Source of the DNA: Psychroserpens mesophilus | GTDB lineage: Bacteria > Bacteroidota > Bacteroidia > Flavobacteriales > Flavobacteriaceae | NCBI RefSeq assembly: GCF_000826645.1 | Contig: NZ_JXJP01000001.1 | Coordinates: forward strand, 310,001-374,000 | Direction of reading: 5' to 3' | Length of the DNA: 64,000 bases | In this document: piece by piece, positions 4,308 through 22,317 of the stretch | Position numbering within the stretch: position 1 is the first letter of the stretch | Layout of the letters: each line of letters begins with the position of its first letter | Translations under genes and position numbers: made by a program | Notes under the pieces: generated by a model | What the model was told of the DNA's origin: nothing | The model's input: the letters and a program-made list of their open reading frames with translations, nothing else | The model's database searches: none

Positions 4308-5600
4308 ATGAGCAAAGCCATTCAGTCCACTTCAGGAACTATTAAATTTAGACTAAAAGATGTTAACTCTAAAACAGAAACTTCTATTATATTGGATTAT
4401 AGTTTTGGGAGAAACAATCGTCTTAAATTCGCTACAGGATATAAAGTTGCACCGCAAAATTGGGATAAAGCTAATCAAAGAATTAGAGCTATATCAACTA
4501 TTGAAAATAGAGAAAAAGTAAATAAAGACTTACTAAGGTTTTCATCCGAATTTGTTAATCAAATTTCTAACCTATCAGAAGCTGAGAAACAAAATAGAAA
4601 AATTCTCAAAAGTTTGTTAGAAAAAATAATTCGTGAAACTGAAGAGTTAGAAAAACCTATAACATCCTTTTTTGAGTTTGCGGATGATTACATAAAAATA
4701 AAAGAGAATCAAGCAAAAAATATTGGTGCTGTTAAATTAAGTCCAATTACAGTAAGGTCATATAAGCAAACTGTAAGTAGATTAAAGGAATTTAATAAGG
4801 AACTTAAATATGATTTGGATTTTGAATCTATTGATTTAAAATTTTATTACACCTTAATTCAGTACTTAGAAAAGAAAAATTACTCGATAAATACTATCGG
4901 TAAGCATATTAAAAACTTGATAACTATTCTAAACAGAGCATCAGAAGAAGGTGTTAATACTACTTTTAAATATAGGCATAGAGAATTTAAAGCAGTTTCT
5001 GAGGAAACGGTTTCGATTTATTTAACGGAATCAGAAATCGATGCATTATTTACTGCTGATTTGTCCAAAACAAAAGATTGGGAGCTTGCTCGAGACATTT
5101 TCTTAATTGGTTATTATACTGGTCAAAGAGTGTCGGATTATAATGGAATTACTAAAGAGCAGATTAAGGTTTTTAATGGTAAAGAGGTTTTTGAGTTTAA
5201 ACAAAAGAAGACTAATAAAAAAGTCTATGTACCAATACATCCAAGAGTAAAAGCTATTTTGAAAGATAGGTATGATGGTGGTCTTCCAAGAAAATATAAT
5301 GATCCTGATATTAATGAATATATCAAGGAAGCTGGTAGGGTTGCAAAAATTAATGAGCAAATTTCAGTCCAAAGAACAATAGGAGGGAAAAAAGTTAGTA
5401 AAGCTGTTCCAAAATATAGCCTAATTGTTTCACATACCGCTCGCAGGTCTTTTTGTACGAATGCATATTTGTCGAAAATGCCAACTATGGATATAATGGC
5501 TATTAGTGGGCATTCTACAGAGCGAGAATTCTACAAGTACATTAAAGTGACACCTCAAGAGCGAGCAGTTAAAATTGCTGACAGCGCTTTTTTTCAATAA
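4308..5600 (+). CDS. Tyrosine recombinase / integrase of the tRNA-Phe element
   Basis: 430 residues, the usual length for Bacteroidota site-specific integrases. It has an N-terminal arm-binding domain (about 15-100), a SAM-like core-binding domain (about 115-215) and a C-terminal catalytic domain. Catalytic residues are visible: Arg274 in YYTGQRVSD, the beta-hairpin Lys near KKTNKKVYVPIH, His376 and Arg379 in SHTARRSF, His402 in SGHSTEREF and the nucleophile Tyr411. It lies 164 bases inside attL, reading into the element, as expected for an integrase serving its own att site. All catalytic positions are intact, so it may be active. Confidence 0.95.
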   Translation: MSKAIQSTSGTIKFRLKDVNSKTETSIILDYSFGRNNRLKFATGYKVAPQNWDKANQRIRAISTIENREKVNKDLLRFSSEFVNQISNLSEAEKQNRKILKSLLEKIIRETEELEKPITSFFEFADDYIKIKENQAKNIGAVKLSPITVRSYKQTVSRLKEFNKELKYDLDFESIDLKFYYTLIQYLEKKNYSINTIGKHIKNLITILNRASEEGVNTTFKYRHREFKAVSEETVSIYLTESEIDALFTADLSKTKDWELARDIFLIGYYTGQRVSDYNGITKEQIKVFNGKEVFEFKQKKTNKKVYVPIHPRVKAILKDRYDGGLPRKYNDPDINEYIKEAGRVAKINEQISVQRTIGGKKVSKAVPKYSLIVSHTARRSFCTNAYLSKMPTMDIMAISGHSTEREFYKYIKVTPQERAVKIADSAFFQ

Positions 5601-5624: not shown

Positions 5625-6407
5625 ATGAATTATAAAGACGTATTTGTAGTAAATAAAATTCACTACAATAAATCTCAAGAAGATGTTGATTTAAATTATC
5701 AACTAAATAATTATGATTATTTAGAACCTAAGTTGGTCGATGATTTTTATCTCAAATACTTTGTGTATAAAATTTTATTTGAATTAGATATCTTAGAAAT
5801 TGATGATTTCTTGAGTTTTCATTTTGAAGAAGCTCAAAATAAAAAACTTTTTACTCAGATTATTAAACATAAGCTATTACAAAAAATAGATTATTTGGTA
5901 AATAATGCAAAAGCTTATATGCCGGAAGGAGGAAGTAATGATGAGATTAAATTGGAAGATGGATTTATAGAAACAAAAGGTAAAATCCTTAAGCCGCTTT
6001 TTGAAGATTATCTAATATCCCATAAAGTAGCCTGGCAAGAACTGAAAGAAAATATTATTTACAGGAAATCGATAATTGAAGATTTCATGAAAGGTGTTAA
6101 TCAATTACAAACTCAAAAGGAAGTAGGTGAAAAATTAGTGTGGTCTGGAAAACCTTCACATTTAGCATATTTTATTTCCCAATTAATTGAGGAAGGCTAT
6201 ATTGAGCCACCGAGAAAACGTAACGATGATATAAATTATCAGAAGCTATCAAATAGAATACTAAATTCTTTTGATTTTGCTAATGATATTCCATCTAATG
6301 AAACTTTAAAGAAATATGGCAATGTAGATGCTGAAAAGTATATAACATTAAATGAAAGATTTGTTAACCATGGTTTCCACTTACCTAATTTGAAAATTAT
6401 GGAATAG
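5625..6407 (+). CDS. RteC-like protein of Bacteroidota mobile elements (tentative)
   Basis: A 260-residue soluble protein, 24 bases after the integrase. The N-terminal two thirds are rich in acidic and aromatic residues and look helical. The segment around residues 167-192 (KLVWSGKPSHLAYFISQLIEE) resembles the C-terminal core of RteC, a regulator found in Bacteroides conjugative transposons, where a similar VW-G stretch precedes a helix. Many Bacteroidota islands carry such a protein next to the integrase. Its role here, perhaps in control of excision or transfer genes, is inferred only from resemblance and position. Confidence 0.45.
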   Translation: MNYKDVFVVNKIHYNKSQEDVDLNYQLNNYDYLEPKLVDDFYLKYFVYKILFELDILEIDDFLSFHFEEAQNKKLFTQIIKHKLLQKIDYLVNNAKAYMPEGGSNDEIKLEDGFIETKGKILKPLFEDYLISHKVAWQELKENIIYRKSIIEDFMKGVNQLQTQKEVGEKLVWSGKPSHLAYFISQLIEEGYIEPPRKRNDDINYQKLSNRILNSFDFANDIPSNETLKKYGNVDAEKYITLNERFVNHGFHLPNLKIME

Positions 6408-6430
6408 GTACCAGTACCTTTTAGTACCTT
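6408..6430. promoter_or_regulatory. Three GTACC repeats, candidate operator
   Basis: GTACC occurs at 6408, 6414 and 6424. The last two are part of a 10 bp repeat (AGTACCTTTT then AGTACCTTAA). They sit 20 bases before a TAGTTTTG promoter box and upstream of the HTH protein gene. A repressor-type site for that protein is a reasonable guess but not shown. Confidence 0.4.
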
Positions 6431-6449
6431 AAAAAATGTTGTTTGGTGG

Positions 6450-6457
6450 TAGTTTTG
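6450..6457 (+). promoter_or_regulatory. Probable -7 box before the HTH gene
   Basis: TAGTTTTG matches TAnnTTTG exactly, 28 bases before the ATG at 6486. No clear TTG lies 18-20 bases upstream. The GTACC repeats occupy the upstream side, where an activator or repressor would act. Confidence 0.45.
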
Positions 6458-6485
6458 TAATAGAAATAAACCCAAATAACATCAA

Positions 6486-6773
6486 ATGAAGTCAACACAA
6501 ACACACGTTTACCTAATAACTCCTGAGGAGCTTACAGATAATATCTTAATAGGTGTTGACAGTAGGTTAAAGAAGTTTTTTGATACATACCAGCCAACTG
6601 TAAAAGACGAGGAAGAGCTTTTGACAGTTGATGAGACAATTAAATTTTTGAAATGCTCTAAACAAGCACTTTGGAACTGGCGCAAGAATGGTATTCTACC
6701 CAGTTATAGATTAGGTAACCGTGTTTACTACAAAAAAAGTGATATATATCAAAAACTTAGAAAACAGGATTAA
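6486..6773 (+). CDS. Helix-turn-helix DNA-binding protein (excisionase / MerR-like)
   Basis: 95 residues. The C-terminal half (about 42-93) is a MerR/AlpA-type winged HTH (LLTVDETIKFLKCSKQAL, then NWRKNGILPSYRLGNRVYYKKSDI), the form commonly annotated as excisionase-family DNA-binding domain in Bacteroidota islands. The N-terminal 40 residues are unassigned. It is the first gene after the GTACC repeats and is followed one base later by a replication-type gene. Likely roles are directing excision or regulating the replication genes; the sequence does not decide between them. Confidence 0.75.
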   Translation: MKSTQTHVYLITPEELTDNILIGVDSRLKKFFDTYQPTVKDEEELLTVDETIKFLKCSKQALWNWRKNGILPSYRLGNRVYYKKSDIYQKLRKQD

Positions 6774-6774
6774 T

Positions 6775-7437
6775 ATGGTTGGATATGTACTCATACACAG
6801 GGATATAATGGATTGGGAATGGTACCAGTCTCCAAATGTATCACGATTATATTTCCATTTAATATTTAAGGTGAACTTTAAAGATAAAAAGTGGCAAGGA
6901 CACCTTGTTGAACGTGGTCAACTAATTACTTCAAACAATCACTTGGCAACAGAGTTAAAGTTATCTGTACAAGTTATAAGAACTGCATTGCAAAAGCTTC
7001 ATGAAGGAGGATACATCAAAATTAAAGCAACAAACAGATTTACGCTCATAACCCTTATCAATTATGATAAATTTCAATCATCTAAAGCTGAAAACAACAA
7101 GCCAGTTATCAATCAGGTAACAATCAAAAAACATACAAGTAACAATCAAATAACAACAACTAAAGAAAGTAATAAAGAAAATAAAACGAATAAAAAAACT
7201 ATTGATGATAGACGTGAAAGATTTAAAAAACAAGTTTTTAAACACTCTCAATATGAAATTAAAGTTTTAGAATCTTTTTATGATTATTGGAGTGAATTAA
7301 ATTCAGATAAATCTGAAATGCGTTATGAAACCGAGAGGTTTTTTGAAATTAAAAAGCGTTTAAAAAAATGGTTGGCAAATGAAAGAACTAATAAAATTGA
7401 GAATAAATCAAAAACTGAATTATTAACCAATAGATAA
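6775..7437 (+). CDS. Winged-helix replication-initiation-type protein
   Basis: I start this at the ATG at 6775, one base after the stop of the HTH gene (220 residues), because a frame extension to 6721 would only overlap that gene. Residues 1-100 (IMDWEWYQSPNVSRLYFHLI ... RGQLITSNNHLATEL ... VIRTALQKLHEGGYI) have the pattern of the winged-helix domain seen in phage and element replication proteins that work with a helicase loader. A Lys/Asn-rich linker and a short C-terminal helical domain follow. The DnaC-like ATPase gene 9 bases downstream supports a replication role. It has no relaxase or primase motifs. Confidence 0.65.
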   Translation: MVGYVLIHRDIMDWEWYQSPNVSRLYFHLIFKVNFKDKKWQGHLVERGQLITSNNHLATELKLSVQVIRTALQKLHEGGYIKIKATNRFTLITLINYDKFQSSKAENNKPVINQVTIKKHTSNNQITTTKESNKENKTNKKTIDDRRERFKKQVFKHSQYEIKVLESFYDYWSELNSDKSEMRYETERFFEIKKRLKKWLANERTNKIENKSKTELLTNR

Positions 7438-7446
7438 TCTGCTATA

Positions 7447-8175
7447 ATGAGAAGTAATGATTTTAAAAAGGCTGGTCAAATCATAAGTCAAATCAAAAGA
7501 AATACTAATAAATCAAATACCGATAATCAAATGAAACCCTTAAATGAATTTACAAAACAGGAATTATGGAAAGCTTTTTTGAAAACATTTAAAGAAATGT
7601 ATAATAAAGAATTTCATGAGGACAAAAATGTTTTAAATAATCTGAAACCGTTGTTTTTTTATTTTTTGAAAGATGAAAAGTTTTTTGAATGTGAAAATTT
7701 AAGAGCAGATATAAGTGCTCCTTCTTTCGAAAAGGGTTTTATGATAATAGGTGGTTATGGTTTAGGAAAGACAGATTATATGAAGGTTTTTCAAAACATC
7801 TTTAAAAATTACCCAAATTTGAGATTGAAGATTTATACCTCAAAAGAACTTGTGCATAAATATGAAATATGTCAAACACCATTGGACAAACAAAGTTTCA
7901 TTAAAGATGCTGAGCGGAAATTAATGTTTATTGATGATATTAGTTCTGAAAGAATCGCAAGTAATTACGGGCATATGGATGTCATCGATGAAGTATTAAT
8001 AAACCGTTATGACAAAAATCTTATAACATTTGTTTCTTGTAACTACACAACAAATAATAACTGCGCGAAACAAACATTGCAAGATCTCGGATTAAGATAT
8101 GGAGGTCGTATGTATGATCGTTTCCATGAAATGTTCAACATTATTGAATTTAAAGGATCAAGTTTTAGAAGATGA
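7447..8175 (+). CDS. DnaC-like ATPase (putative helicase loader)
   Basis: 242 residues. A P-loop GGYGLGKT spans residues 102-109 and a Walker B strand LMFIDDI ends with Asp163-Asp164, in the spacing of DnaC/IstB-type AAA+ proteins. The arginine-rich C-terminus (DLGLRYGGRMYDRFHEMF) resembles the sensor region of this group. DnaC-like proteins load replicative helicase onto DNA. Together with the winged-helix gene just upstream this makes a small replication module, which would let the excised circle copy itself. IstB transposition helpers share these motifs, but no transposase is present. Confidence 0.72.
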   Translation: MRSNDFKKAGQIISQIKRNTNKSNTDNQMKPLNEFTKQELWKAFLKTFKEMYNKEFHEDKNVLNNLKPLFFYFLKDEKFFECENLRADISAPSFEKGFMIIGGYGLGKTDYMKVFQNIFKNYPNLRLKIYTSKELVHKYEICQTPLDKQSFIKDAERKLMFIDDISSERIASNYGHMDVIDEVLINRYDKNLITFVSCNYTTNNNCAKQTLQDLGLRYGGRMYDRFHEMFNIIEFKGSSFRR

Positions 8176-8181
8176 TAAAAG

Positions 8182-8203
8182 GTTAAATAAAACTTTATTT
8201 AAC
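8182..8203. repeat. Inverted repeat GTTAAATAAA / TTTATTTAAC
   Basis: A perfect 10 bp inverted repeat with a 2-base centre, in the short gap between the DnaC-like gene and the zinc-finger gene. No T-run follows on either strand, so it is a poor terminator. It could be a protein-binding site or part of an origin for the adjacent replication module. Confidence 0.35.
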
Positions 8204-8234
8204 GTATTAAGAGTAAAAAAACACCCAAAAAACT

Positions 8235-8672
8235 ATGAAAACTGACAAAAACTGTAAATATTGTTATCAACTGTTTGAATCAAGAAGGAGTAATCATGTG
8301 TATTGCACAACGAGTTGTAAAACAAAAGCAAGTTATAAAAGAAATAACTACAAGTATATATCAGGTCACTACAAGAAACAAGATGTTGAAGTTGAAGAAA
8401 GCGGACAATTAATGATACCTGATAACGTGTCATCACAAATACAATCATTAGAGGATAAATTAGCTACTTTACAAGAAAGCTTAAAACCTACTATAAATGC
8501 TGCTGAAATAGGTAGTGCAGCAATAGGTTCTGTAACAGCCGATGCAACTATTTATGGATTAAAGAAACTATTTAATCCAAGTTCTTTACATGCAACTAAA
8601 GGAGATATTGAGAAATTGAAGAATAGAATTAACGATTTAAGTAATCTTATTACGAATATTAAAAATTTTTAA
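8235..8672 (+). CDS. Small protein with N-terminal Cys4 zinc finger and coiled coil
   Basis: 145 residues, not assigned to a family. The N-terminus has CxxC-x13-CxxxC (Cys7, Cys10, Cys24, Cys28) followed by a basic stretch KTKASYKRNNYK, the look of a small DNA- or RNA-binding zinc ribbon. Residues 66-82 form a heptad-like helix (SSQIQSLEDKLATLQES). A small-residue hydrophobic stretch (about 88-106) and a second amphipathic helix (about 119-142) follow. It sits downstream of the replication module. An accessory DNA-binding role is plausible but unproven. Confidence 0.6.
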   Translation: MKTDKNCKYCYQLFESRRSNHVYCTTSCKTKASYKRNNYKYISGHYKKQDVEVEESGQLMIPDNVSSQIQSLEDKLATLQESLKPTINAAEIGSAAIGSVTADATIYGLKKLFNPSSLHATKGDIEKLKNRINDLSNLITNIKNF

Positions 8673-8716
8673 ATGGATTCTATTTTAATTAAAATACATA
8701 CTTGCTTGCATAATAA

Positions 8717-10363
8717 TTGTCTTGCCAATTAATTAAATCAACTAATTTTGTTATAAATTTAAAAAATTATAACCCTTTTCATTTGCAATTTCTACAAGAC
8801 TTATTAGACAATAAAGAGCCTTCCAATCGATGGCAAGATTATAGAACCTTTTGTGACAATATTAAAAATGTTGATATAGACCTTTATGTTAAGGCACTAC
8901 CAGAATTACTTCAAAATTTAAAAAGTAATTATCCTACAAGAAATCTTCAAATAGCCATTACTCGCGAAGCAAAAGAGGATGCTTCATTTGGAAGAGAAAT
9001 TTATTTAAAAACACTTGAAACGAAAAATCCTGATTCGTATTTTACATTAATGGATATTCTATCTGGATTATATCATTCAGACCAAAAGTTTGCAATGGAT
9101 GAGATTAAGCGCCTAATTGAAGATGATAACCTAGGCTTAAAAGAAATAGGAATAAAATCTATCGTTAAAATTGACTTGTTAGCGAAAACAACACCAAAAA
9201 CATTTGTAAGCTGGATTGAAAAACAATTCAATAGTATTATTAATAATAAGACTCTTGAGGAGTTATGGCCATCAGTTTTCTTTACCATTAGAAATAAAAG
9301 AAATGAATTAAAAAATGCAGATAAAATTATAGATAAGCTATCAAGTATTAATACTATTGAAATTCAATTAGAGCTCATTTACTTTTTGGATTACAATATA
9401 GATTTAGGCAACGAAATACACCTCTTTAAAAAATATCTTCCATTGTTGCTTCACATTGATATAGAACATGCAGGAGCGTATAATCAATTGGCTTATCGAT
9501 TGGAAAATGTGGCTAAAACCAATTTAGATTTGGTAGTTGGTTTTATTACAGATTGGGTAGGGATAAGTCTAAAAAATGCTAGAAAAATAGAATATTTCAG
9601 CCATTTGCTGAATACACTTTGCGATGATTTTTATTCAGATTTCCAAAAGCTATATACAAATTGGTTAAATAAAGACAATCCAAATTTTCATATTGCCATT
9701 TTTGAAATGAATAGTGCTAGATATATGAGGGATTTATCAGGATTGACGGTTTCAGAAGTTCTAATAAAGGACTTTTCAGATTACGATATTGAATATATCA
9801 CGTACAAAATACTTGCCTATGTTTATGATAAAGACACCTCTTTATCTTTGATATATTCCATACTCGAACAAAAAGTAGACAATAAAGAGGTTGTAATTTT
9901 CTTAGCTGATTTATTTATTAACCACTTAATTTTTAATTATTATTCAACTATTGAGTTTTTAAATTTAAAAAAGAAGACTGCCAATAGAAAACTTAAAAAA
10001 ATAATAAAAGATATTGTTGATGAAGGGGAAGATAAATACAAGGCGTATTCAGATCTAGAAAACCTAAAAGAGTTTGCGCCTTCAGAGAGAAGAATGATAT
10101 ATTATAATAAAATACAGAATAGAAAATTTAATAAATCCTATAAAGAGAGTGAATCAGAAAGTTCATCATTTTTAAGTATGATTACGAATATCAATTACAG
10201 AACGGGAAAGTCTACATTTTCAAAATACCAAGGCAAATACACCGAAAAGATGACACCAGCACTTATTTCGCATAGTGGCGAAATGCCAAGAGGCGAATTT
10301 ATAGACCCCATAGGTCAAGCAACAGAACGGTTACTATGGCAAAATTTTAAAAGAAGGCAATGA
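8717..10363 (+). CDS. Unknown protein, helical-repeat type; first gene of candidate three-gene system
   Basis: I do not recognise this 548-residue protein. It appears almost entirely helical, with irregular repeats of about 35-45 residues over residues 30-420 that suggest a HEAT-like scaffold. The C-terminal 60 residues differ: a Ser/Glu-rich linker (ESESESSS), then a compact, conserved-looking tail (SKYQGKYTEKMTPALISHSG, EMPRGEFIDPIG). There is no signal peptide or membrane segment. The reading frame opens with TTG at 8717 right after an in-frame stop and has no ATG for the first 111 codons. A promoter-like pair of boxes at 8722-8750 lies inside it, so the true start may be further down, for example TTG 8783. 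It overlaps the next gene by 4 bases (ATGA). Confidence 0.7.
   Translation: MSCQLIKSTNFVINLKNYNPFHLQFLQDLLDNKEPSNRWQDYRTFCDNIKNVDIDLYVKALPELLQNLKSNYPTRNLQIAITREAKEDASFGREIYLKTLETKNPDSYFTLMDILSGLYHSDQKFAMDEIKRLIEDDNLGLKEIGIKSIVKIDLLAKTTPKTFVSWIEKQFNSIINNKTLEELWPSVFFTIRNKRNELKNADKIIDKLSSINTIEIQLELIYFLDYNIDLGNEIHLFKKYLPLLLHIDIEHAGAYNQLAYRLENVAKTNLDLVVGFITDWVGISLKNARKIEYFSHLLNTLCDDFYSDFQKLYTNWLNKDNPNFHIAIFEMNSARYMRDLSGLTVSEVLIKDFSDYDIEYITYKILAYVYDKDTSLSLIYSILEQKVDNKEVVIFLADLFINHLIFNYYSTIEFLNLKKKTANRKLKKIIKDIVDEGEDKYKAYSDLENLKEFAPSERRMIYYNKIQNRKFNKSYKESESESSSFLSMITNINYRTGKSTFSKYQGKYTEKMTPALISHSGEMPRGEFIDPIGQATERLLWQNFKRRQ
8722..8750 (+). promoter_or_regulatory. Consensus Bacteroidota promoter for the three-gene operon
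   Basis: TTG at 8722-8724, 18 bases, then TAATTTTG at 8743-8750: an exact match to the -33/-7 consensus. Transcription would start near 8755, which is inside the open frame of the first gene. The translational start of that gene is therefore probably downstream of the frame's TTG at 8717. Confidence 0.6.
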
Positions 10364-12045
10364 GATTTTTACTGAGTGAATATATTAATCTTTTAAAAGA
10401 AGATAAAGAACTTGATGTGTTGCTGACTGATCTGCTAGTTGGAATGAAATTTACAACTATCTCAAAGCCAATGAAAGGTCGTCAATTTGGTGTAGATATT
10501 TCAGCTGTAGGTATTGATCCAGAAGATGGTATTAAGAAGGTGTTTTTGTTCGCTGTAAAACAAGGTAATCTAACAAGAACCACTTGGGATGGAGATGTCA
10601 ACGCCATACGCTCAACTCTAAACCAAATTAAAGACACGTTTATTCCAACATCACTAACAAATCGTTTAAAAAAACTTCCTAAAAAAATAATAGTTTGTAC
10701 TAATGGTGTTATAAATCAAAATGTTTTAGTTGATTGGACACAATATATCGACCAGAATACTACAGATGCTGTTGAATATGATTTTTGGGGTACAGGCGAA
10801 ATAACTGCAATGCTTGACGACTATCTTGTTAGTGAAAAACTATTTCCACAAGAATATCAATCTTTATTAAGAAAATCTTTGGCATTTTTAGATTTACCAG
10901 ATTATGATTTATCACATTTCTATACGCTGATTCAAAAAATTTTAGACAAGCAACCCAAACAAAAAAGACAAATATTAAAAAAATTAAGACTGGTACGATT
11001 ATGCCTTAACATTATATATAAATGGTCTCAAGACAATAATAATTTGAAACCTTCAATTTATGCAAGTGAACGATGTTTGTTACTAAGCTGGCACTTTATG
11101 CAAGAAGGTAATCATTTGGAGAAAAATTTTGTAAGACAGGAATTTTACAAAATCCATTCTTTAAAAAGAAATATAGGTGTCTATTATTTTAACAAAGTTG
11201 CTAAACATTACAAAACAGAGCACAGTATATATAAATACAGCAGAAATAGTCTAGAGTACAGTCTTAATGTTTGGGAAGAAATAGGAATTATAGCAACAAT
11301 AGGGTTGACGGAAATACAAGAGTTTAGAATCCATTATAGAGAAGGTAATGAAGAGCATGCTCAAACATATTACCAAAGCGCTCTTTCAATTAGTAACGGA
11401 TTATGTTTGTTTATAAAAAACAATCCACCTTCAAAATATCCAGAATACGATGTACATAGTATTGAAATAGCTTTAGCACTTAACTTAATGAATTTTACAA
11501 GAAACTTTAACCCAGCCAAAAAATGGATTTTTGAAATGACTTTAGGTTTTAATAACAGATATAAAATAAATAAGTTTTTCCCATTGTTTAGAAAAAGTTA
11601 TGATAAGCTGGTGGATATTCATAATGGAGATGAAGAATGTGAAATTCAGTCTTCAATGATAGTTCTTGTATTGGCAGAATACACTTTAGTTTTAAAGGAT
11701 GAAGACCTATATCAATTTGTCCGCAAGATCCCTACTGAACTTTTTCCAGATTTGAACTTGCAAATATGGTTTCCACTTGAAGAAATGGAAAATAAAATAT
11801 GTGTTCAGGATTATAGTCGTGGCGAAGGAACACTAAAACATTCTGTAACAATATACGAGAATGTAGAAGAGTACAAAAAAGAAATTGTATCAGAAATGGA
11901 ACTCTTCGGACCAGAAAAGGACTTTAAAATTTTTAAACATAGTTTCGACATTGTTGCTCACGTTGCAAGTAGGCACTACAAAAGCCAACCTTTTCCTTTA
12001 ACGTGGCGAGTTTTAATGAAACAAGAAGTCTCAACAAAAGAATAG
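10360..12045 (+). CDS. Unknown protein with possible PD-(D/E)XK-like N-terminal domain; second gene of candidate system
   Basis: 561 residues, not recognised as a named family. Residues 30-165 alternate strands and helices in the way of restriction-endonuclease-like folds: GVDISAVG with Asp46, then a strand VFLFAVKQG with Lys67, then KKIIVCTNG and EYDFWGTGEITAMLDDYL. Asp46 and Lys67 could be the D...xK pair, but the usual Glu/Gln two residues before the Lys is Ala65, so nuclease activity is uncertain. Residues 185-560 are helical and TPR-like (EEHAQTYYQSALSISNG). The start ATG overlaps the previous stop, so the two proteins are probably made together and may form a complex. Confidence 0.7.
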   Translation: MRFLLSEYINLLKEDKELDVLLTDLLVGMKFTTISKPMKGRQFGVDISAVGIDPEDGIKKVFLFAVKQGNLTRTTWDGDVNAIRSTLNQIKDTFIPTSLTNRLKKLPKKIIVCTNGVINQNVLVDWTQYIDQNTTDAVEYDFWGTGEITAMLDDYLVSEKLFPQEYQSLLRKSLAFLDLPDYDLSHFYTLIQKILDKQPKQKRQILKKLRLVRLCLNIIYKWSQDNNNLKPSIYASERCLLLSWHFMQEGNHLEKNFVRQEFYKIHSLKRNIGVYYFNKVAKHYKTEHSIYKYSRNSLEYSLNVWEEIGIIATIGLTEIQEFRIHYREGNEEHAQTYYQSALSISNGLCLFIKNNPPSKYPEYDVHSIEIALALNLMNFTRNFNPAKKWIFEMTLGFNNRYKINKFFPLFRKSYDKLVDIHNGDEECEIQSSMIVLVLAEYTLVLKDEDLYQFVRKIPTELFPDLNLQIWFPLEEMENKICVQDYSRGEGTLKHSVTIYENVEEYKKEIVSEMELFGPEKDFKIFKHSFDIVAHVASRHYKSQPFPLTWRVLMKQEVSTKE

Positions 12046-12049
12046 AATA

Positions 12050-13153
12050 ATGTCAAATCCAATAAAGCAACATTATATACCACGTTCATATTTAAAGAAC
12101 TTTGCAGTTGAAGGAAGAAAAAGAAATCATTTTGTCGATGTTTATAAAATGGACAATGATATGCTTTTAGAGCAAATAAGCACAAAAGATATTTGTTTTG
12201 AAAAAAACATTTATACAATTCCTGCTGAATCAGATGAAGTAAAATACGCCTTGGAAAAACATTATGCTGAAAATGTTGATAGCGAGTTTCCAAAAATATA
12301 TAAATTACTTGTAGATGAAAAGGTATTGACAGTTAGTCAAGAGCAAAAAATTCAAGTACTATATGTATGTCTATCATTATATTTTCGTACACCAAGAATT
12401 TTAAATCTTCAAAAAGGTATGAATAAACAAATCTTTGATAGGGCAGCTTATACAGCAAATGAACATGGTTTGATAAAAATGAATTTATTTGGAGAGAAAA
12501 TGGAATTTCATATTGATGAAATAGAGGAGGTTAAAAAACAGTACGATGAACGTTCAAGAACTGCCTTCTTAGTTAACCACCTTGAACAATGGGGAAACTT
12601 TGTTAAATACAAATACGATTGTACAATAAATGTAATTAAAATAGAAGATTCAAATGCGCCAATAATTACTTGCGATAATCCAGTTTCAATTAGGCATTTT
12701 GAAACTAATAAATTTCAAGGTTTATATGATCCCAAAGCAGTTATTACTTTGCCCTTGGATCGTTCACATTATTTAGAGATTCATCCTAATGATTACGCAG
12801 ATGGACAAACGAGAATTAATCGTCTTACACAAGACAGAGATTATGTCTTTACAACAAATGGGGTAACACAACAGAATGCTGAAAATTTGTTAGTTGCTTA
12901 TAAAGGTGATATTGATAAACATTTTGAAATTCAAAACCATTATGAAAAGCCAGAAAATGGAGAAGAGTTTTTGAAAAAAGCTAAATACAGAGCAGAACAA
13001 GCTCTGATACTATTTGATATTTTAAAGAAAAAAGGATTTGTTTCCAAGGAATTTATTGGTAAGTTAAAAGAGTTATTAGAACACCCTTATTGTAAGGATG
13101 ACATACAAATGCTGAAGTATAAAAAAGTACTTTCTAAAATGGGTAAGTGGTAG
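12050..13153 (+). CDS. DUF4238 family protein; third gene of candidate system
   Basis: 367 residues beginning four bases after the previous gene. The N-terminal signature KQHYIPRSYLKNFA is the hallmark of DUF4238, a widespread family of unknown function. Other conserved-looking parts are FRTPRIL (about 117-123), the region INVIKIEDSNAPIITCDNPV (about 195-214), ITLPLDRSHYLEIHP, and a hydrophilic helical C-terminus. It is predicted soluble. The tight spacing makes it part of the operon beginning at 8717 rather than of the metal genes, which start after a 68-base gap with their own regulatory repeats. Whether it is essential to the system or simply a passenger cannot be told here. Confidence 0.85.
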   Translation: MSNPIKQHYIPRSYLKNFAVEGRKRNHFVDVYKMDNDMLLEQISTKDICFEKNIYTIPAESDEVKYALEKHYAENVDSEFPKIYKLLVDEKVLTVSQEQKIQVLYVCLSLYFRTPRILNLQKGMNKQIFDRAAYTANEHGLIKMNLFGEKMEFHIDEIEEVKKQYDERSRTAFLVNHLEQWGNFVKYKYDCTINVIKIEDSNAPIITCDNPVSIRHFETNKFQGLYDPKAVITLPLDRSHYLEIHPNDYADGQTRINRLTQDRDYVFTTNGVTQQNAENLLVAYKGDIDKHFEIQNHYEKPENGEEFLKKAKYRAEQALILFDILKKKGFVSKEFIGKLKELLEHPYCKDDIQMLKYKKVLSKMGKW

Positions 13154-13163
13154 TATAATACTT

Positions 13164-13192
13164 TTGCAACATCATTTGCAACATCATTGCAT
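13164..13192. promoter_or_regulatory. Three TTGCAA-type repeats upstream of the Zn/Cd efflux genes (candidate Fur-family operator)
   Basis: TTGCAA at 13164, TTGCAA at 13176 and TTGCAT at 13187, so 11-12 bases apart. The last two units contain TGCAA-CATCA-TTGCA, an inverted repeat. A similar pair (TTGCAC, TTGCAA, 11 bases apart) occurs at 19704-19720, right after the Fur-family gene. No such repeats precede the copper block. They are good candidates for the binding site of the element's Fur-like regulator. Confidence 0.5.
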
Positions 13193-13203
13193 TAAATAAT
13201 TGA

Positions 13204-13211
13204 TATATTTG
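13204..13211 (+). promoter_or_regulatory. Probable -7 box of the Zn/Cd efflux operon
   Basis: TATATTTG matches TAnnTTTG exactly, 11 bases before the ATG at 13222. The TTGCAA repeats fill the region where the -33 box would lie, so a repressor bound there would block transcription. Confidence 0.45.
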
Positions 13212-13221
13212 TATAAATTAT

Positions 13222-13617
13222 ATGAAAATCTTTTTTTCCATATCAATGTCTATTTTACTCTTTTTTCAAGGGATAAGTATAGATATGGACTTTTGTGGAC
13301 CAATTAAAGAAATTTCAAACGTTATTACCCATTATCAAGACCATAAAGTTTATGGTGACTCTTTCCTTGAATATGTGGTTGAAGATTACTTTGGCAGTGA
13401 TACTCAAAATGAAGAGCATCATCATAACCCAGATAAGGAAAATACACCTGTTCATTCCCATAATCAGTGTTGTCATCCTTTAGTATTAATTATTGCCAAC
13501 AATAATTTAGCTTTAAACAATCGACTAAAGTTTGAAGAGAAAAAACAATACAATTTACATAAAGTAAACTTCACTTCCAGATATTTGGAATCACTTTTCC
13601 AGCCACCAAGGGCGTAA
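13222..13617 (+). CDS. Small exported His/Cys-rich protein of the metal operon
   Basis: 131 residues with an N-terminal signal sequence (about 1-20, FFSISMSILLFFQGISI). The middle is rich in possible metal ligands (EEHHHNPDKENTPVHSHNQCC) and the C-terminus ends LFQPPRA. Short periplasmic proteins of this type often head czc-like operons in Bacteroidota, and the CC plus PP pattern recalls the HYC_CC_PP group encoded at 22318, although HYC itself is replaced here by MDFCG. Probably a periplasmic metal sensor or binding protein. No catalytic function is visible. Confidence 0.65.
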   Translation: MKIFFSISMSILLFFQGISIDMDFCGPIKEISNVITHYQDHKVYGDSFLEYVVEDYFGSDTQNEEHHHNPDKENTPVHSHNQCCHPLVLIIANNNLALNNRLKFEEKKQYNLHKVNFTSRYLESLFQPPRA

Positions 13618-13739
13618 TTCAGTTTTTTTAAAGGATAACTATATCCAATTTTGAGCCTATATGGTTCTTTTCATTTCGTGTAATTCAATTTTTATATCAG
13701 AATTGTAGCGAAAAGTTTAACTGAATTAAAACATTTTCT

Positions 13740-16700
13740 ATGATTAATAAAATCATTGATTTTTCAATCAATAACAAATTCATTATTGGTTTGCTAACGC
13801 TTACCATTATTGGAGCAGGTATTTGGAGTATGACCCAAGTACCCATCGATGCTGTTCCAGATATTACTAACAATCAAGTACAGGTCATTACACAAGCACC
13901 AAATTTAGGTACAGAGGACATTGAACAATTTGTAACCTATCCAGTAGAAGTTGCAATGAGCAACCTACCTGATGTAAAGGAAATCCGTTCCATTTCTCGT
14001 TTTGGTTTATCTGTGGTTACTATTGTTTTTGACGATGATATGGGAACCTATCTACCACGTCAATTAGTAGCTGAAAAGCTAAACGAAGTTAAAGAACAAA
14101 TTCCAAGTGGTTTTGGCGAACCTGCTATGGGACCTATCTCTTCTGGTTTAGGAGAAATCTATCAATACACACTTAAAGTAAAACCAGAGTATAAAGACAA
14201 ATATTCAGTTACTGATTTGCGCACAATGCAAGATTGGATTGTACAACGTCAAATGGCAATGGTAGAAGGTGTAGTTGAGGTAAATGCCATAGGTGGAAAA
14301 ATTAAACAATACGAAGTTGCTGTTGATCCAAACGAATTAAAAGCTATTGGTTTAACAATTACCGATGTTTTTGAAGCCCTTGAAGCCAACAATCAAAACA
14401 CAGGTGGTGCTTATATTGAAAAGAACCATCAAGCCAATTTCATTCGTGGAGAAGGTTTGGTACGTAGTTTAGATGATATTAAAAAGATCACGGTTAAAAA
14501 CTCAAGCAATATTCCAATTACTGTTGGTGACATTGCTACGGTACAGTATGGTGCTGCTATTCGCTATGGTGCATTAACACAAGATGGTGAAGGTGAAGTC
14601 GTAGGTGGTTTGGTCATGATGCTTAAAGGCGCTAATTCAAACGATGTTATTGAGAATGTAAAAGTGCGAATGGCTCAAATTGAAAAATCATTGCCAGAAG
14701 GTGTCATTATCGAACCTTTGTTAGACCGAAGCAAATTAATAGCAGAAACGACTTCAACGGTTGCTACCAACCTAATTGAAGGTGCATTAATAGTAATATT
14801 TGTTCTTATTTTCTTATTAGGCAATTGGCGAGGTGGTTTAATCGTTGCTTCAACAATTCCATTATCACTATTATTTGCATTTATACTAATGAATGTGTTT
14901 GATGTTTGGGCAAACCTAATGAGTTTAGGAGCAATAGATTTCGGAATTATCGTAGATGGTGCTGTGATTATTGTAGAAAGTACCGTTTTTCTAATCGCTT
15001 CGCAACTCTATAAGAAGAAAAAATTGACATCCAAAGAACGTGATGGTGTTGCAGCAAATGCTTCAAAAAAAATGATGAATGCTGCCTTTTTCGGTCAACT
15101 GATTATTTTAATTGTTTTTCTACCCATATTAGCATTAGAAGGCATTGAAGGCAAAATGTTTAAACCAATGGCATTGACCTTTATTTTTGCTATGATTGGC
15201 GCAATGGTACTCTGTTTAACCTATGTTCCAATGATGTCTGCATTGGTGTTAAGAGCGCCAAAAAGTGCCAAAAAATCTTATGGAGATAGATTTGTGCTTT
15301 GGGTTGAGGACAAGTATCAACCCTTATTGGTAAAAGCATTGAAAAAAGGAAAATGGATTATTGGTATTGCAGTTGTGCTATTCGGAATTACAGTCTTTAT
15401 GTTCACGAGAATGGGCGGCGAATTTATTCCACAATTAGATGAAGGCGACATTGCATTTCACGCCATTTTAAAACCCGGAAGCTCACTTACAGAAACGATT
15501 GAAACGACTACAAAAATTGAACAAATTGTAAAAGCAAAGTTTCCAGAAGTTGAGAAAATTGTAAGTAGAATTGGTGTTGCAGAAATTCCAACAGATCCAA
15601 TGCCAATGGATTTAGCCGATGTTTTTGTAATTCTAAAGCCAAAAAGCGAATGGACAACCGTTGAAACAAAAGACGAACTCATTGAAAAAATGAAAGAAGC
15701 TGTGGAAATAATTCCTGGTGTTAACTATGAATTTACCCAACCTATTGAAATGCGATTTAATGAACTGCTCGAAGGTGTTAGAGAAGACATTGCTATTAAA
15801 CTTTATGGTGAAGATATAGAGGTGCTATCTCAAAAAGCAGAAGAAATATCTAAAATTATTGCTGGTACAGAAGGTATTGGCGATATGAAAGCGGAAGCTA
15901 CAACAGGTTTGCCGCAAATGACGATTTCGTATAACAGAAATAAATTGGCACAATATGGACTTCAAATAAATACCTTAAATCAAATTGTACAATCAGCATT
16001 TGCAGGAGGAACAGCTGGCGTTATTTTTGAAGGTGAAAAGCGGTTTGATTTGGTGGTTAGGTTAAGTTCTCGTAATCGTAAGGACATAACAGATGTTCAA
16101 AATTTGTTTGTCAACTTACCTTCTGGTGTGCAAATTCCGCTTCGCGAAGTAGCTGATATAAGTTACAAAGGTGGTCCAATGCAAATCAGTAGAGACAATA
16201 CCAATAGAAGAACCTATGTAGGTATTAATGTAAGAGGTCGTGATGTTAAATCATTGGTAGGCGAAATCAAAACTAAATTAGATGAACAATTAGAACTACC
16301 TTCTGGTTATTTCATTCGTTATGGTGGTGCTTTTGAAAATTTAGAACGTGCCAGTAACCGTTTACAAACCGTTGTCCCTATTGCCTTGTTACTCATTTTT
16401 GTACTGATTTATTTTGCATTAAAATCCTTACCACAAACCTTGATGATTTATATAGCAATCCCAATGGCAACCATTGGAGGTGTTGTAGCGTTATGGTTGC
16501 GTGATATGCCTTTTAGTATTTCGGCAGGAGTCGGTTTTATTGTGTTGTTTGGTGTTGCAGTATTAAACGGATTAGTAATGATTAGTGGTTTGAATGAGTT
16601 AAAAGAAGAAGGAGTTACCAATCTAAAAGATAGAATTATAGAAGGTACAAAGCGAAGAATTAGACCTATAATGTTAACTGCTTTTACAGATGTTTTAGGC

Positions 16701-18074
16701 TTTCTGCCTATGGCAATTTCAGCATCGGCTGGTGCAGAAGTTCAGCGACCTTTAGCAACTGTTGTAATTGGTGGTTTGTTAACCTCTACACTATTAACAT
16801 TATTCGTTTTACCTATATTATATCATTGGGTAGAAAACAAATCATTCAATTTTAGGGCTAACAAAAAGGTAATTACAGTTACTGCTATGGTGGCTTTTAT
16901 GTTTTTGTTGCCAATAACAGGAAATGCGCAAAAAATAAATGATTCGTTACCAATTATTTCGATGCAAGAAGCTGTAAAATTGGCTAAAGAAAACTATCCA
17001 TGTTTAAAACAACAACAACTCGAAATTGATAAGCAACTACAATTAAAAGGAACGGCTTTCGATTTTGGTACTACTCAAATTTTTACTGGTGGTGAAGAAA
17101 TCAATAATGGATCAGGTATTTACACCACTATTGGAGTTGGTCAATCAAATATAGACGTGTTTGGTATAGCACCAAAGCGGAAATTACTGGAGCAACGTAT
17201 TCAGTTAGCCCAAAAAGCCTATCAGCTTTCAGAATTAGATTTAGAATTGGAAGTAAAGAAAGCGTGGGCAAATGCTTTACAGAGTAAAAGGAATTATAAT
17301 TTATACAAAGAGTTAGATTCCATCTATACCAACTTTGAAAAAGCAGTAGCACTAAATTATGAAGTCGAAGCCATTTCTAAACTGGAATATTCGGCAGCCA
17401 AAAATCAAGCTTTACAGATTCAGAATAAATTTTTGCAATCAAAAAGTGAATATGTTATTGCTTTACAACAATTAAACTTGTGGTTGATATCAGATGATTT
17501 TTATACGGTTTCAGATGAAATTGATATAGAGAGCGAAATAAATGTAGAATCCTTTAGTATTGAAGCACACCCTTTATATACTGTTTCTCAACTTCAACTC
17601 ACAGAGGCAGAAGCAAACTTTAAAGCTGCCAAAGCTGAAAATTTACCAAAGTTCAACCTTCAAGGTGGTTTGCAAAACGTAAACGGAAATTCAGGGTTTT
17701 ATACCTATCAAGCTGGTATTTCCATACCATTTTTATCTGGTACAACAAAAGCACAAGTTAGAACAGCAAAAATTGATAGACAAATTGCCGAAACTAATAT
17801 GCAGTTTAAGCAAAAGGAGGTACAATCTAAATTTAATCAAGCTAAAGAGAATTACCAAAAATGGAAAATATCTTGGCTGTTCTATAAGAATGAAGTATTA
17901 CCACTTATTAAAGAACAAAAAACGGGTGCATTGTTTGCTTATAGAGAAGGAGAGATTGACTACACAGCATTTACACAACTTATAAAAGAAGCTATTCAAT
18001 CAGAATTGGAAGCACAAACGGCATTAGTGAACTATTTAGAAAGTACATTTCAATTACAATATTTTAATCAATAA
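13740..18074 (+). CDS. CzcA-type heavy-metal RND pump fused to a TolC-like outer membrane factor
   Basis: 1444 residues. Residues 1 to about 1035 are a complete HME-RND transporter: an N-terminal membrane helix, two periplasmic loops, and TM4 with DFGIIVDGAVIIVE, whose D...D...E pattern is typical of CzcA pumps for Zn, Cd or Co. From about 1040 a hydrophobic, signal-like stretch (ITVTAMVAFMFLLPITGNAQ) leads into a TolC-type domain (about 1065-1444, MQEAVKLAKENYPCLKQQQL). Inner-membrane pump and outer-membrane channel are thus one polypeptide, as seen in other Bacteroidota. It would need cleavage at the internal AQ site, or an unusual topology, to work. The adaptor gene begins 4 bases later. 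Confidence 0.9.
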   Translation: MINKIIDFSINNKFIIGLLTLTIIGAGIWSMTQVPIDAVPDITNNQVQVITQAPNLGTEDIEQFVTYPVEVAMSNLPDVKEIRSISRFGLSVVTIVFDDDMGTYLPRQLVAEKLNEVKEQIPSGFGEPAMGPISSGLGEIYQYTLKVKPEYKDKYSVTDLRTMQDWIVQRQMAMVEGVVEVNAIGGKIKQYEVAVDPNELKAIGLTITDVFEALEANNQNTGGAYIEKNHQANFIRGEGLVRSLDDIKKITVKNSSNIPITVGDIATVQYGAAIRYGALTQDGEGEVVGGLVMMLKGANSNDVIENVKVRMAQIEKSLPEGVIIEPLLDRSKLIAETTSTVATNLIEGALIVIFVLIFLLGNWRGGLIVASTIPLSLLFAFILMNVFDVWANLMSLGAIDFGIIVDGAVIIVESTVFLIASQLYKKKKLTSKERDGVAANASKKMMNAAFFGQLIILIVFLPILALEGIEGKMFKPMALTFIFAMIGAMVLCLTYVPMMSALVLRAPKSAKKSYGDRFVLWVEDKYQPLLVKALKKGKWIIGIAVVLFGITVFMFTRMGGEFIPQLDEGDIAFHAILKPGSSLTETIETTTKIEQIVKAKFPEVEKIVSRIGVAEIPTDPMPMDLADVFVILKPKSEWTTVETKDELIEKMKEAVEIIPGVNYEFTQPIEMRFNELLEGVREDIAIKLYGEDIEVLSQKAEEISKIIAGTEGIGDMKAEATTGLPQMTISYNRNKLAQYGLQINTLNQIVQSAFAGGTAGVIFEGEKRFDLVVRLSSRNRKDITDVQNLFVNLPSGVQIPLREVADISYKGGPMQISRDNTNRRTYVGINVRGRDVKSLVGEIKTKLDEQLELPSGYFIRYGGAFENLERASNRLQTVVPIALLLIFVLIYFALKSLPQTLMIYIAIPMATIGGVVALWLRDMPFSISAGVGFIVLFGVAVLNGLVMISGLNELKEEGVTNLKDRIIEGTKRRIRPIMLTAFTDVLGFLPMAISASAGAEVQRPLATVVIGGLLTSTLLTLFVLPILYHWVENKSFNFRANKKVITVTAMVAFMFLLPITGNAQKINDSLPIISMQEAVKLAKENYPCLKQQQLEIDKQLQLKGTAFDFGTTQIFTGGEEINNGSGIYTTIGVGQSNIDVFGIAPKRKLLEQRIQLAQKAYQLSELDLELEVKKAWANALQSKRNYNLYKELDSIYTNFEKAVALNYEVEAISKLEYSAAKNQALQIQNKFLQSKSEYVIALQQLNLWLISDDFYTVSDEIDIESEINVESFSIEAHPLYTVSQLQLTEAEANFKAAKAENLPKFNLQGGLQNVNGNSGFYTYQAGISIPFLSGTTKAQVRTAKIDRQIAETNMQFKQKEVQSKFNQAKENYQKWKISWLFYKNEVLPLIKEQKTGALFAYREGEIDYTAFTQLIKEAIQSELEAQTALVNYLESTFQLQYFNQ

Positions 18075-18078
18075 GACA

Positions 18079-19284
18079 ATGAAAAACACACGATATATAA
18101 TTTTAGCACTACTAACAGTTTCATTTTTAGTTGTTGCTTGCGGAAATAAAGAAAGCCATAAAGAGGGTGATGGTCATTCCCATAACGAAGTACAAAAAAC
18201 TGAAGAAAACGATGGACATAGCGAAGGCGAAGAAGTGATGCTTTCACAACAACAGTTTGAAGCCTTAAAAATGAAAGTTGACACCTTGGCATTACGCAAT
18301 ATGAGTGGTTATGTTGAAGCAAATGGCACTTTGGAAGTTCCACCACAAAGTGAAGCAGCCATAACATCAGTAGTTGGCGCAAATGTAGTTTCCATAAAAG
18401 TGATTGAAGGCGATAAGGTGAACAAAGGTCAAGTGGTAGCTTATCTTTCACATCCAAATATTATTCAAATGCAAACCGATTATTTGAATGCTTTTAGCAA
18501 TAGTAATTTTTTAAAGAAGAACTTTGAGCGTCAGCAAAAATTATATGATGCAGGAGTTGGCTCTGGTGCAAATTACCAAAAAGCTGAAGCAGAATATGAA
18601 GCTTCTAAAGCTATGGTCAAGGGATTGGAAGCGCAATTGAGATTATTAAACATTAATTCGTCATCAGTACGAAATGGAACAATTGCTCAAAGTATATCAT
18701 TACGCAGCCCAATAGATGGTTTTGTTCAAAAAGTTGAAGTAAAAACAGGACAGTATGTTGAACCACAAACCGAGCTCTTTGAAATCGTAAATACCCATCA
18801 TGTTCACGCAGATTTAATGGTTTTTGAAAAAGATGTTTATAAAGTAAAAAAAGGTCAAAAAGTAACCTTTAATGTCCAATCAATGCAAGATGAAGAATTA
18901 ATAGCTGAAATATATTCCGTTAGTAAAACATTTGAAGATAATCCTAAAGCAGTACATGTACATGCTGAGATTGAAAACAAAAAAGGGAATCTAATTCCTG
19001 GAATGTATATTCAAGGAAAAATTCAAACTGAAAATGCTGAAACTATGGCAATGCCTGAAAGTGCTATAGTAAAAGAAGGTGATCGGTTTTTTGTGTTTTC
19101 AGCAGAAAAAGAAAATGAAGATTGGAGTTTTAAACCTTATGAAGTGCATTTAGGAGCAAAAGATGGTAATTGGATATCAGTTCAATTTTCTGAATATATA
19201 AAACCAAATACAAAATTTGCTTATAATAATGCCTATTACCTTATCGCAGAAATGAAAAAAGGAGAAGCTGAACACGAACATTAA
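18079..19284 (+). CDS. CzcB-type RND periplasmic adaptor lipoprotein
   Basis: 401 residues. A lipoprotein signal ends at VVACGNK (lipid-carrying Cys about residue 21), followed by a His/Asp/Glu-rich stretch (HKEGDGHSHNEVQ) suited to metal binding. The core is a membrane fusion protein: a barrel-sandwich half (VVSIKVIEGDKVNKGQVVA), a coiled-coil hairpin (about 130-200), the second lipoyl half (SPIDGFVQKVEVKTGQYV) and a beta-barrel region. It would link the CzcA pump to its TolC part. It is the second gene in a run of three tightly packed genes ending with the Fur-family regulator. Confidence 0.9.
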   Translation: MKNTRYIILALLTVSFLVVACGNKESHKEGDGHSHNEVQKTEENDGHSEGEEVMLSQQQFEALKMKVDTLALRNMSGYVEANGTLEVPPQSEAAITSVVGANVVSIKVIEGDKVNKGQVVAYLSHPNIIQMQTDYLNAFSNSNFLKKNFERQQKLYDAGVGSGANYQKAEAEYEASKAMVKGLEAQLRLLNINSSSVRNGTIAQSISLRSPIDGFVQKVEVKTGQYVEPQTELFEIVNTHHVHADLMVFEKDVYKVKKGQKVTFNVQSMQDEELIAEIYSVSKTFEDNPKAVHVHAEIENKKGNLIPGMYIQGKIQTENAETMAMPESAIVKEGDRFFVFSAEKENEDWSFKPYEVHLGAKDGNWISVQFSEYIKPNTKFAYNNAYYLIAEMKKGEAEHEH

Positions 19285-19286
19285 TT

Positions 19287-19703
19287 ATGCAAACAATAGA
19301 ACAAGTATTAGAGTCAAAAGATATACGTGTTACGGCAATGCGTTTACTTATTTATAAGTTTCTTGCAGAAAAGGAGGTTGCTGTTACGCTGAGTGATATA
19401 GAACATGCTTTTGTAAAAGCAGATAGAACTACCTTGTACAGAACTATTAAAACTTTTGAAGAAAAGGATATTGTACATCAAATAGACGATGGGACGGGTA
19501 TAACAAAATATGCTTTATGTGAAAATGGTTGCAATTGTGAAATTGAAACTGACTTGCATTTACATTTTCATTGTAATAACTGTAACGAAACCATTTGCTT
19601 AACAGAACATAAGATTCCCCAAATTAAAGTGCCAGAAGGTTTCGTTTCAGAAAATGTCAATTTGGTGGTCAAGGGTATTTGTGATAAATGTAGTGGACAA
19701 TAA
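19287..19703 (+). CDS. Fur-family metalloregulator
   Basis: 138 residues, the usual Fur size. A winged helix fills residues 1-80 (ITVTAMRLLIYKFLAE-type start and RTTLYRTIKTFEEKDIVHQI as recognition region). The C-terminal dimerisation domain has His and Cys ligands (HLHFHCNNC near residues 89-98, and ICDKC near the end), the structural zinc site of the family. Being co-transcribed with a Zn/Cd-type pump suggests that it senses those metals. Repeats of TTGCAA type before the operon and just after this gene may be its operators. Confidence 0.88.
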   Translation: MQTIEQVLESKDIRVTAMRLLIYKFLAEKEVAVTLSDIEHAFVKADRTTLYRTIKTFEEKDIVHQIDDGTGITKYALCENGCNCEIETDLHLHFHCNNCNETICLTEHKIPQIKVPEGFVSENVNLVVKGICDKCSGQ

Positions 19704-19720
19704 TTGCACTTCCATTGCAA
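19704..19720. promoter_or_regulatory. TTGCAC/TTGCAA repeat pair, candidate Fur-family operator
   Basis: TTGCA-CTTCCAT-TGCAA is an inverted repeat and also two near-identical hexamers 11 bases apart. It matches the pattern at 13164-13192. It lies between the Fur gene and the DUF3703/P-type ATPase genes, where it could control the latter. Confidence 0.45.
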
Positions 19721-19758
19721 GTATTAGTATTATATTTTTATAATCAAAACAATTGGTA

Positions 19759-20121
19759 TTGAAACTAAATTATAAAATACCAAAACATTTGAAAGATGCT
19801 TATAACAAGGAACTTGGTTTTTATGAAGTTGCTTTGGCAAAAGGTGATTTTACAAATGCTTGGTATCATTTAGAAAGAAGCCATATTATTGGTCAATCTT
19901 ACCCAGTAGAACACACATATTCGCATTGGTTAATGTTAAAGTTTGGATTAATGCGAAAAGACACGAAAGAAGTATTTGGACAAATATTAAGATTAATTGT
20001 TGGAGGTTGGAAATCATTTATTAACCGTGTTCCTCTTGGCAATACTGGAGGTTCCAACGTGCCTCCATTAAAACGTATGCCTATACCTAGTGATATTAAA
20101 AATTTATTCAATTCAAAATGA
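19759..20121 (+). CDS. DUF3703 family protein
   Basis: About 120 residues. The start is non-ATG: TTG at 19759 gives MKLNYKIPKHLKDAYNKELG, and an upstream TTG at 19753 adds two residues. The signature AWYHLERSHIIGQSYPVEHT, then HWLMLKFG and NTGGSNVPPLKRMPIP, belongs to DUF3703, an uncharacterised family that is usually found beside heavy-metal efflux genes. Conserved His residues (HLERSH, HTYSHW) could bind metal. The stop overlaps the ATPase start by 4 bases, so the two are translationally coupled. Confidence 0.85.
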   Translation: MKLNYKIPKHLKDAYNKELGFYEVALAKGDFTNAWYHLERSHIIGQSYPVEHTYSHWLMLKFGLMRKDTKEVFGQILRLIVGGWKSFINRVPLGNTGGSNVPPLKRMPIPSDIKNLFNSK

Positions 20122-22234: not shown

Positions 22235-22317
22235 TTTTATAAAATGGTTTGTATAATGATTTAATTTTTTGTTAAAAAGCAACCTATTATTTGATTTTTC
22301 GTAACTTAGCAATCAGT

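Follow-up and report, generated by a model that had tools for sequence, protein, structure and literature searches.

A stretch of 64,000 nucleotides from Psychroserpens mesophilus (contig NZ_JXJP01000001.1, positions 310,001 to 374,000; hereafter the window) carries at 8717-13153 three plus-strand genes, which a first-pass annotation had described as an uncharacterised three-gene operon and a candidate new defence system. Its defence assignment held and its novelty did not: the first two genes are almost certainly Olokun, an anti-phage system that is already described, and the third, immediately downstream, is a separate defence gene of the DUF4238 family, which has been described on its own as anti-phage. 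Two neighbouring systems are the best reading of the three genes. This explanation as a whole, with the mechanism proposed below for OloA and OloB, appears likely to us.

Olokun, which consists of OloA and OloB, was reportedly discovered by Millman et al. in 2022. In PADLOC-DB, gene 1 matched OloA (PDLC03925, E 6.9e-71, profile positions 68-595 of 596) and gene 2 (oloB, 10360..12045, 561 amino acids [aa]) matched OloB over residues 1-554 (PDLC03926, E 5.7e-154, profile positions 1-555 of 556); the two homologues are adjacent and co-oriented. Gene 3 (12050..13153, 367 aa) had no PADLOC match and belongs, as first annotated, to DUF4238 (Pfam PF14022, E 1.6e-35, 123 bits versus a cut-off of 27). 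The list of open reading frames (ORFs) confirmed the positions given earlier, with a 4-base overlap between oloA and oloB and a 4-base gap before the DUF4238 gene. Genes 1 and 2 had looked uncharacterised because neither protein has a Pfam or NCBIfam family and PHROGs rows were at chance level only; the Pfam scan also found no NTPase or sensor domain, as the annotation had said. The ratio of nonsynonymous to synonymous substitution rates (dN/dS) was 0.14 for OloA and 0.05-0.09 for OloB (two relatives each) and 0.05-0.06 for DUF4238 (three relatives), with some dS values near saturation. These low ratios support well the coding nature of all three genes, which are under purifying selection.

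Olokun is cited elsewhere as a described system, in the passage of PMC10121019 that names it. The window has the same two genes in the same order, both models being matched nearly full length, but its copy differs in belonging to a flavobacterial branch, in lying on a metal-efflux island with DUF4238 behind it, and in an OloA match that starts at profile position 68. By analogy with the described systems, both Olokun and DUF4238 of the window would protect against phage.

The pairing of the first two genes was assessed in 34 loci that contain a substantial OloB besides the window (nine from genome_contigs, 12 from family or phylum genomes, and 13 from plasmids, the latter examined with flanks of up to 6 kb out of 34 matching plasmid records). 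OloA was detected upstream of OloB in 25 of them by phmmer with the window OloA (E <= 0.01), and the PADLOC OloA model added L048, L055, L032, L040, and L041 as well as a C-terminal remnant in L056, bringing the paired loci to 31 of 34. An ISAs1 transposase lies between oloA and oloB in L045, and in L049, L050, and L053 an overlapping ORF of 571-576 aa precedes OloB, two of these aligning with OloA rows. Four OloB loci, two of them near-identical, were found in viral contigs with the OloB alignment; each has an upstream ORF overlapping OloB, and the two ORFs tested were OloA. No match was confirmed when the viral contigs were scanned with the DUF4238 of the window and with three other branches of OloB, and no record of the INPHARED phage collection contained OloB.

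Counting the window's own genome, OloB occurs in 13 of 299 family genomes (one a 33-residue stump, one damaged) and in 5 of 395 phylum genomes, where one match is weak and partial. Among 23 genomes of the window's genus, the operon is present only in the window's own; G436 has the DUF4238 end, and the other five matches span 27-58 bases. Eight named flavobacterial genera have copies with 89-99% identity to the window OloB, and the module therefore moves recently and widely. One of the near copies, in Olleya marilimosa (L011, OloB 89% identical), has RND-like proteins on both sides within the locus and no DUF4238 was found there. A Burkholderia ubonensis plasmid (L056:3979-7080) carries a CBASS-type cyclase and a 2TM effector, followed by the OloA C-terminal remnant and a truncated OloB.

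Gene 1 had been annotated at 8717-10363 with 548 aa; the reading frame stands, but its start probably does not. Among nine relatives aligned to the window, 1- and 3-base indels occur upstream of 8783 and the sequence is conserved from there onward, and distant OloA proteins start at about this point as well. This pattern makes a start at TTG 8783 (8783..10363, 526 aa) more likely than one at 8717. The predicted model of OloA is a helical solenoid (alpha-solenoid; mean predicted local distance difference test [pLDDT] 67.9, predicted template modelling [pTM] score 0.50), in line with the helical repeats proposed before, and its best Foldseek matches were importin-alpha ARM repeats (E 2.4e-4; TM by query 0.20-0.33 for the first nine); a PDB sequence search returned no solved relative of OloA. 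The tail that had seemed conserved, residues 455-526, is indeed the best-conserved part (mean majority fraction 0.46 versus 0.30-0.39 elsewhere, in an alignment of 20 rows that left out L003-L010, L033, L032, L040, L041, L050, L055, and L056), and its pLDDT is below 50. Conserved yet unfolded alone in the model, the tail suggests a docking site for a partner, most simply OloB. The alignments used for structure prediction of OloA and OloB had 11 rows each, namely the window, six of the nine genome_contigs loci, and the four viral-contig loci.

For OloB, the predicted structure contains an alpha-beta3-alpha-beta core of the PD-(D/E)XK type in residues 1-159 (10360..10836), agreeing with the restriction-endonuclease-like N-terminus that had been proposed, and a helical, repeat-like C-terminal half in residues 160-561 (10837..12042). 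We aligned 24 OloB sequences, the window and 23 loci (some rows starting at an inner residue picked by homology), leaving out the near-identical L003-L010 and L033, L050, which is near L049, and the truncated L056. E17, D46, and K67 are invariant in all 24, and the model places D46 before strand 2 and K67 at the end of strand 3; D46, K67, and A65 lie at the positions first reported. The core topology and the placement of D46 and K67 are as in the PD-(D/E)XK nucleases FokI (cleavage domain, 2fok), AF1548 (1y88), and MspJI (4f0p), from which OloB differs in being only 6-14% identical, in lacking the third acid in the window copy, and in its C-terminal half. We take D450 and K469 of FokI to be the counterparts of D46 and K67, a correspondence seen as residue ranges only.

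Several observations weigh against an active nuclease. The residue two before K67, usually an acid or Gln, is A65 in the window, and the site may for this reason be weak or dead. No Foldseek match of the OloB model had an E below 0.001, and its first 40 residues were modelled with a block pLDDT of 58-67. The class 'nuclease' for Olokun is one entry in a table titled 'experimentally validated or predicted' (PMC10855318, the table itself), and another review, where it touches on Olokun, gives the mechanism as unknown. As for the searches, none of the listed matches that name Olokun was a mechanism paper by title. PDB sequence searches with OloB and with the profile of the 24-sequence alignment gave chance-level matches only, and the best E for Mrr_cat was only 0.079, in one of the 24 sequences. 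Our classification of the N-terminus goes no further than a predicted nuclease-like fold whose site is atypical, and we do not count it among the proven active members; this PD-(D/E)XK-fold domain is probably the Olokun effector. A sister branch of OloB carries E-x-K. One Olokun locus with such an OloB (L032:6631-12089) is flanked on both sides, on the same strand, by RlaP-family nucleotidyltransferases.

In the mechanism that we propose, OloA, a HEAT/ARM-like solenoid, would be scaffold and sensor, and its conserved tail, unfolded in the model, would dock on OloB. On a signal of infection from OloA, OloB, a predicted nuclease of PD-(D/E)XK fold whose C-terminal half is helical and repeat-like, would cut nucleic acid of the phage or the host. 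We lean towards OloB cutting nucleic acid, and regard the chances that OloA senses or activates as about even. A rather unlikely alternative is that the OloB N-terminus is a catalytically dead PD-(D/E)XK domain with nucleic acid or a nucleotide as its ligand, and that Olokun works through some other activity of the complex, for example a replication block. This would fit the residue two before K67, which is something other than an acid or Gln in 21 of 24 sequences (T7 S6 A4 V2 L1 I1) and Glu in three, and also R73, which is present in all 21 and replaced in the three with Glu. A dead site, however, would have no need of the invariant E17, D46, and K67, and position 89 in the next helix is an acid or Gln in 23 of 24 (E18 Q4 D1; Gln in the window). 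Enzymes of the Cfr10I type have a migrated metal-ligand position, a precedent for an acid or Gln elsewhere in the site, and position 89 is by analogy a possible migrated ligand of the cutting OloB that we favour.

The first-pass annotation had also treated the three genes as one system, and this part was not supported. A relative of the window DUF4238 adjoins OloB in 11 of the 34 loci (same strand in L003-L010, L033, and L034, convergent in L035) and was undetected near the other 23, including all 13 on plasmids (phmmer, E <= 0.01, by which a distant DUF4238 could be missed). L005 and L035 have a disrupted DUF4238 frame beside an open OloAB, DUF4238 occurs in genomes without OloB and behind pAgo, Avs3, and other cassettes, and, in the part of Rousset et al. 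2022 (PMC9122126) that concerns it, a single DUF4238 gene of the same family PF14022 conferred strong T7 resistance. We consider it very unlikely that DUF4238 is a subunit or effector of Olokun, in spite of three points in favour: the DUF4238 start lies 4 or 7 bases behind oloB, both in the window and in 10 same-strand relatives; a convergent, disrupted DUF4238 also adjoins the more distant Olokun of L035 (OloB 57% identical); and OloB and DUF4238, found in 13 and 31 of 299 family genomes (apparently the same draw for both counts), occur together in 8 versus 1.3 expected at random with kinship ignored. DUF4238 probably acts independently of Olokun. In L042, a genome of the window's genus, a 904-aa protein with an N-terminal DUF4365 domain (5703-8417; E 1.4e-7, no PADLOC match) replaces OloAB, and only the last OloB codons remain before a DUF4238 that is 97% kept. 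The window's own genome has a second, distant DUF4238 gene on an 8.9-kb contig (G000:C72:7895-8629; L002, L043).

Of 397 family genomes, 19 (counting that of the window) have a close relative of the window DUF4238 (E <= 1e-60), and the 5' neighbours of these relatives are diverse. These are Olokun on the same strand in five, convergent Olokun in one, the DUF4365 protein with the OloB stump in one, pAgo with a 244-aa protein in five (two also with ApeA), Avs3a/b with the 244-aa protein in one, a triad of 303-, 258-, and HNH-like 236-aa proteins in five, and a cation ATPase in one (G463 and G610 were taken as L008 and L009, the contigs having identical lengths; PADLOC gave the names pAgo, ApeA, and Avs3 in L072 and L073, and similarity to these two loci served for the others). 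The 3' side is more uniform, with a small protein and an RND pump in 15, a TonB-type protein and a cation ATPase in two, and none of the queried genes in two; the RND and TonB labels are presumed from the look of the sequences, and the ATPase type is based on PF00122 in the window's copy. Across 22 loci whose junctions were compared (among them nine of the 11 made up of the window and its 10 same-strand relatives), the distance to the DUF4238 start is 3 or 12 bases from the 244-aa gene (6 loci), 11 bases from the triad (5 loci), 4 bases from the OloB stump of L042, and 30 bases from the ATPase of L069. By eye, the resemblance between the Olokun and the pAgo/Avs3 contexts starts at the DUF4238 ATG; no junction was readable in the triad and ATPase contexts because their DUF4238 copies are only 55-58% identical to that of the window.

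A rather unlikely reading of these arrangements makes DUF4238 a shared plug-in partner: a constant last gene that would be co-expressed with interchangeable, unrelated defence cassettes (Olokun, pAgo, Avs3, the HNH-like triad) and would supply them with an effector or safeguard function, the cassettes apparently being swapped at the DUF4238 start codon, mostly at the border of the metal-efflux cargo. The shared 3' DUF4238 may be a functional partner or only a recombination border. That DUF4238 of this clade is part of the metal cargo, or only such a border, seems improbable to us: the position before the small protein and RND pump in 15 of 19, and before the TonB-type protein and cation ATPase in two more, is what it would predict, but none of the queried metal genes occurs in 18 kb of L035 (G467), where DUF4238 stands beside Olokun, or in the 8 kb behind DUF4238 in L087 (G505). 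The operon-like spacing of 3-12 bases after three unrelated cassettes and the anti-phage activity published for the family, as far as PMC9122126 treats it, also count against it.

The triad (L085:4333-6742; also L086, L088, L089, and L090, with the middle gene split in one) had no PADLOC match and only a weak HNH_5 match in L085, and is a candidate defence cassette of no named type. The 244-aa protein between pAgo or Avs3 and DUF4238 (L072:5906-6640; also L073, L074, L076, L077, and L087) had no Pfam family and a marginal PADLOC HEPN row (E 0.0088) in L072.

In the window, Olokun and DUF4238 are located on an integrase-bearing island with metal-efflux genes. Upstream on the plus strand are a tyrosine integrase (4308..5600, PF00589, E 7.2e-14) and a DnaC/DnaI-like helicase loader (7447..8175; NF005992, E 6e-8, below the curated cut-off), and a 145-aa ORF between the replication genes and oloA (8235-8672) matches phage HNH proteins at its N-terminus (phrog_8660, E 1.8e-6). 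Downstream, also on the plus strand, a 131-aa protein (13222..13617) with no Pfam or NCBIfam family above cut-off precedes an ORF (13740..18074) which we take to encode a CzcA-like RND efflux protein. Ahead of the efflux block at 22302, the window has a second one behind DUF4238, in the region 13222-22073; nine of the 10 same-strand Olokun-DUF4238 relatives run straight into the 22302 block, and L009 is arranged like the window. The promoter earlier ascribed to the operon was rejected, as 33 sigma-70-like sites in 8600-13300 versus 26.4 +/- 4.0 in shuffles is at chance level, with a consensus that is presumably not the flavobacterial one.

In the sections of PMC9122126 on the single-gene system, DUF4238 stands alone in a P2-prophage hotspot, whereas that of the window is the last gene behind other cassettes. 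DUF4238 and Olokun are both among the island-borne systems of Pseudomonas, in different hotspots, and the relevant parts of that report (PMC12629846) neither connect them with metal cargo nor describe a DUF4238 common to several cassettes. A limited search of titles and abstract openings found no description of such a DUF4238 slot or a metal-defence hotspot in flavobacteria. The supposed new system now has its place, and the Olokun effector, the docking of the OloA tail, and the DUF4238 slot are three testable points. These results suggest that, in flavobacteria, DUF4238 marks a slot for the exchange of defence cassettes, mostly beside metal-efflux genes, which accommodates known systems as well as at least one cassette of unknown kind.
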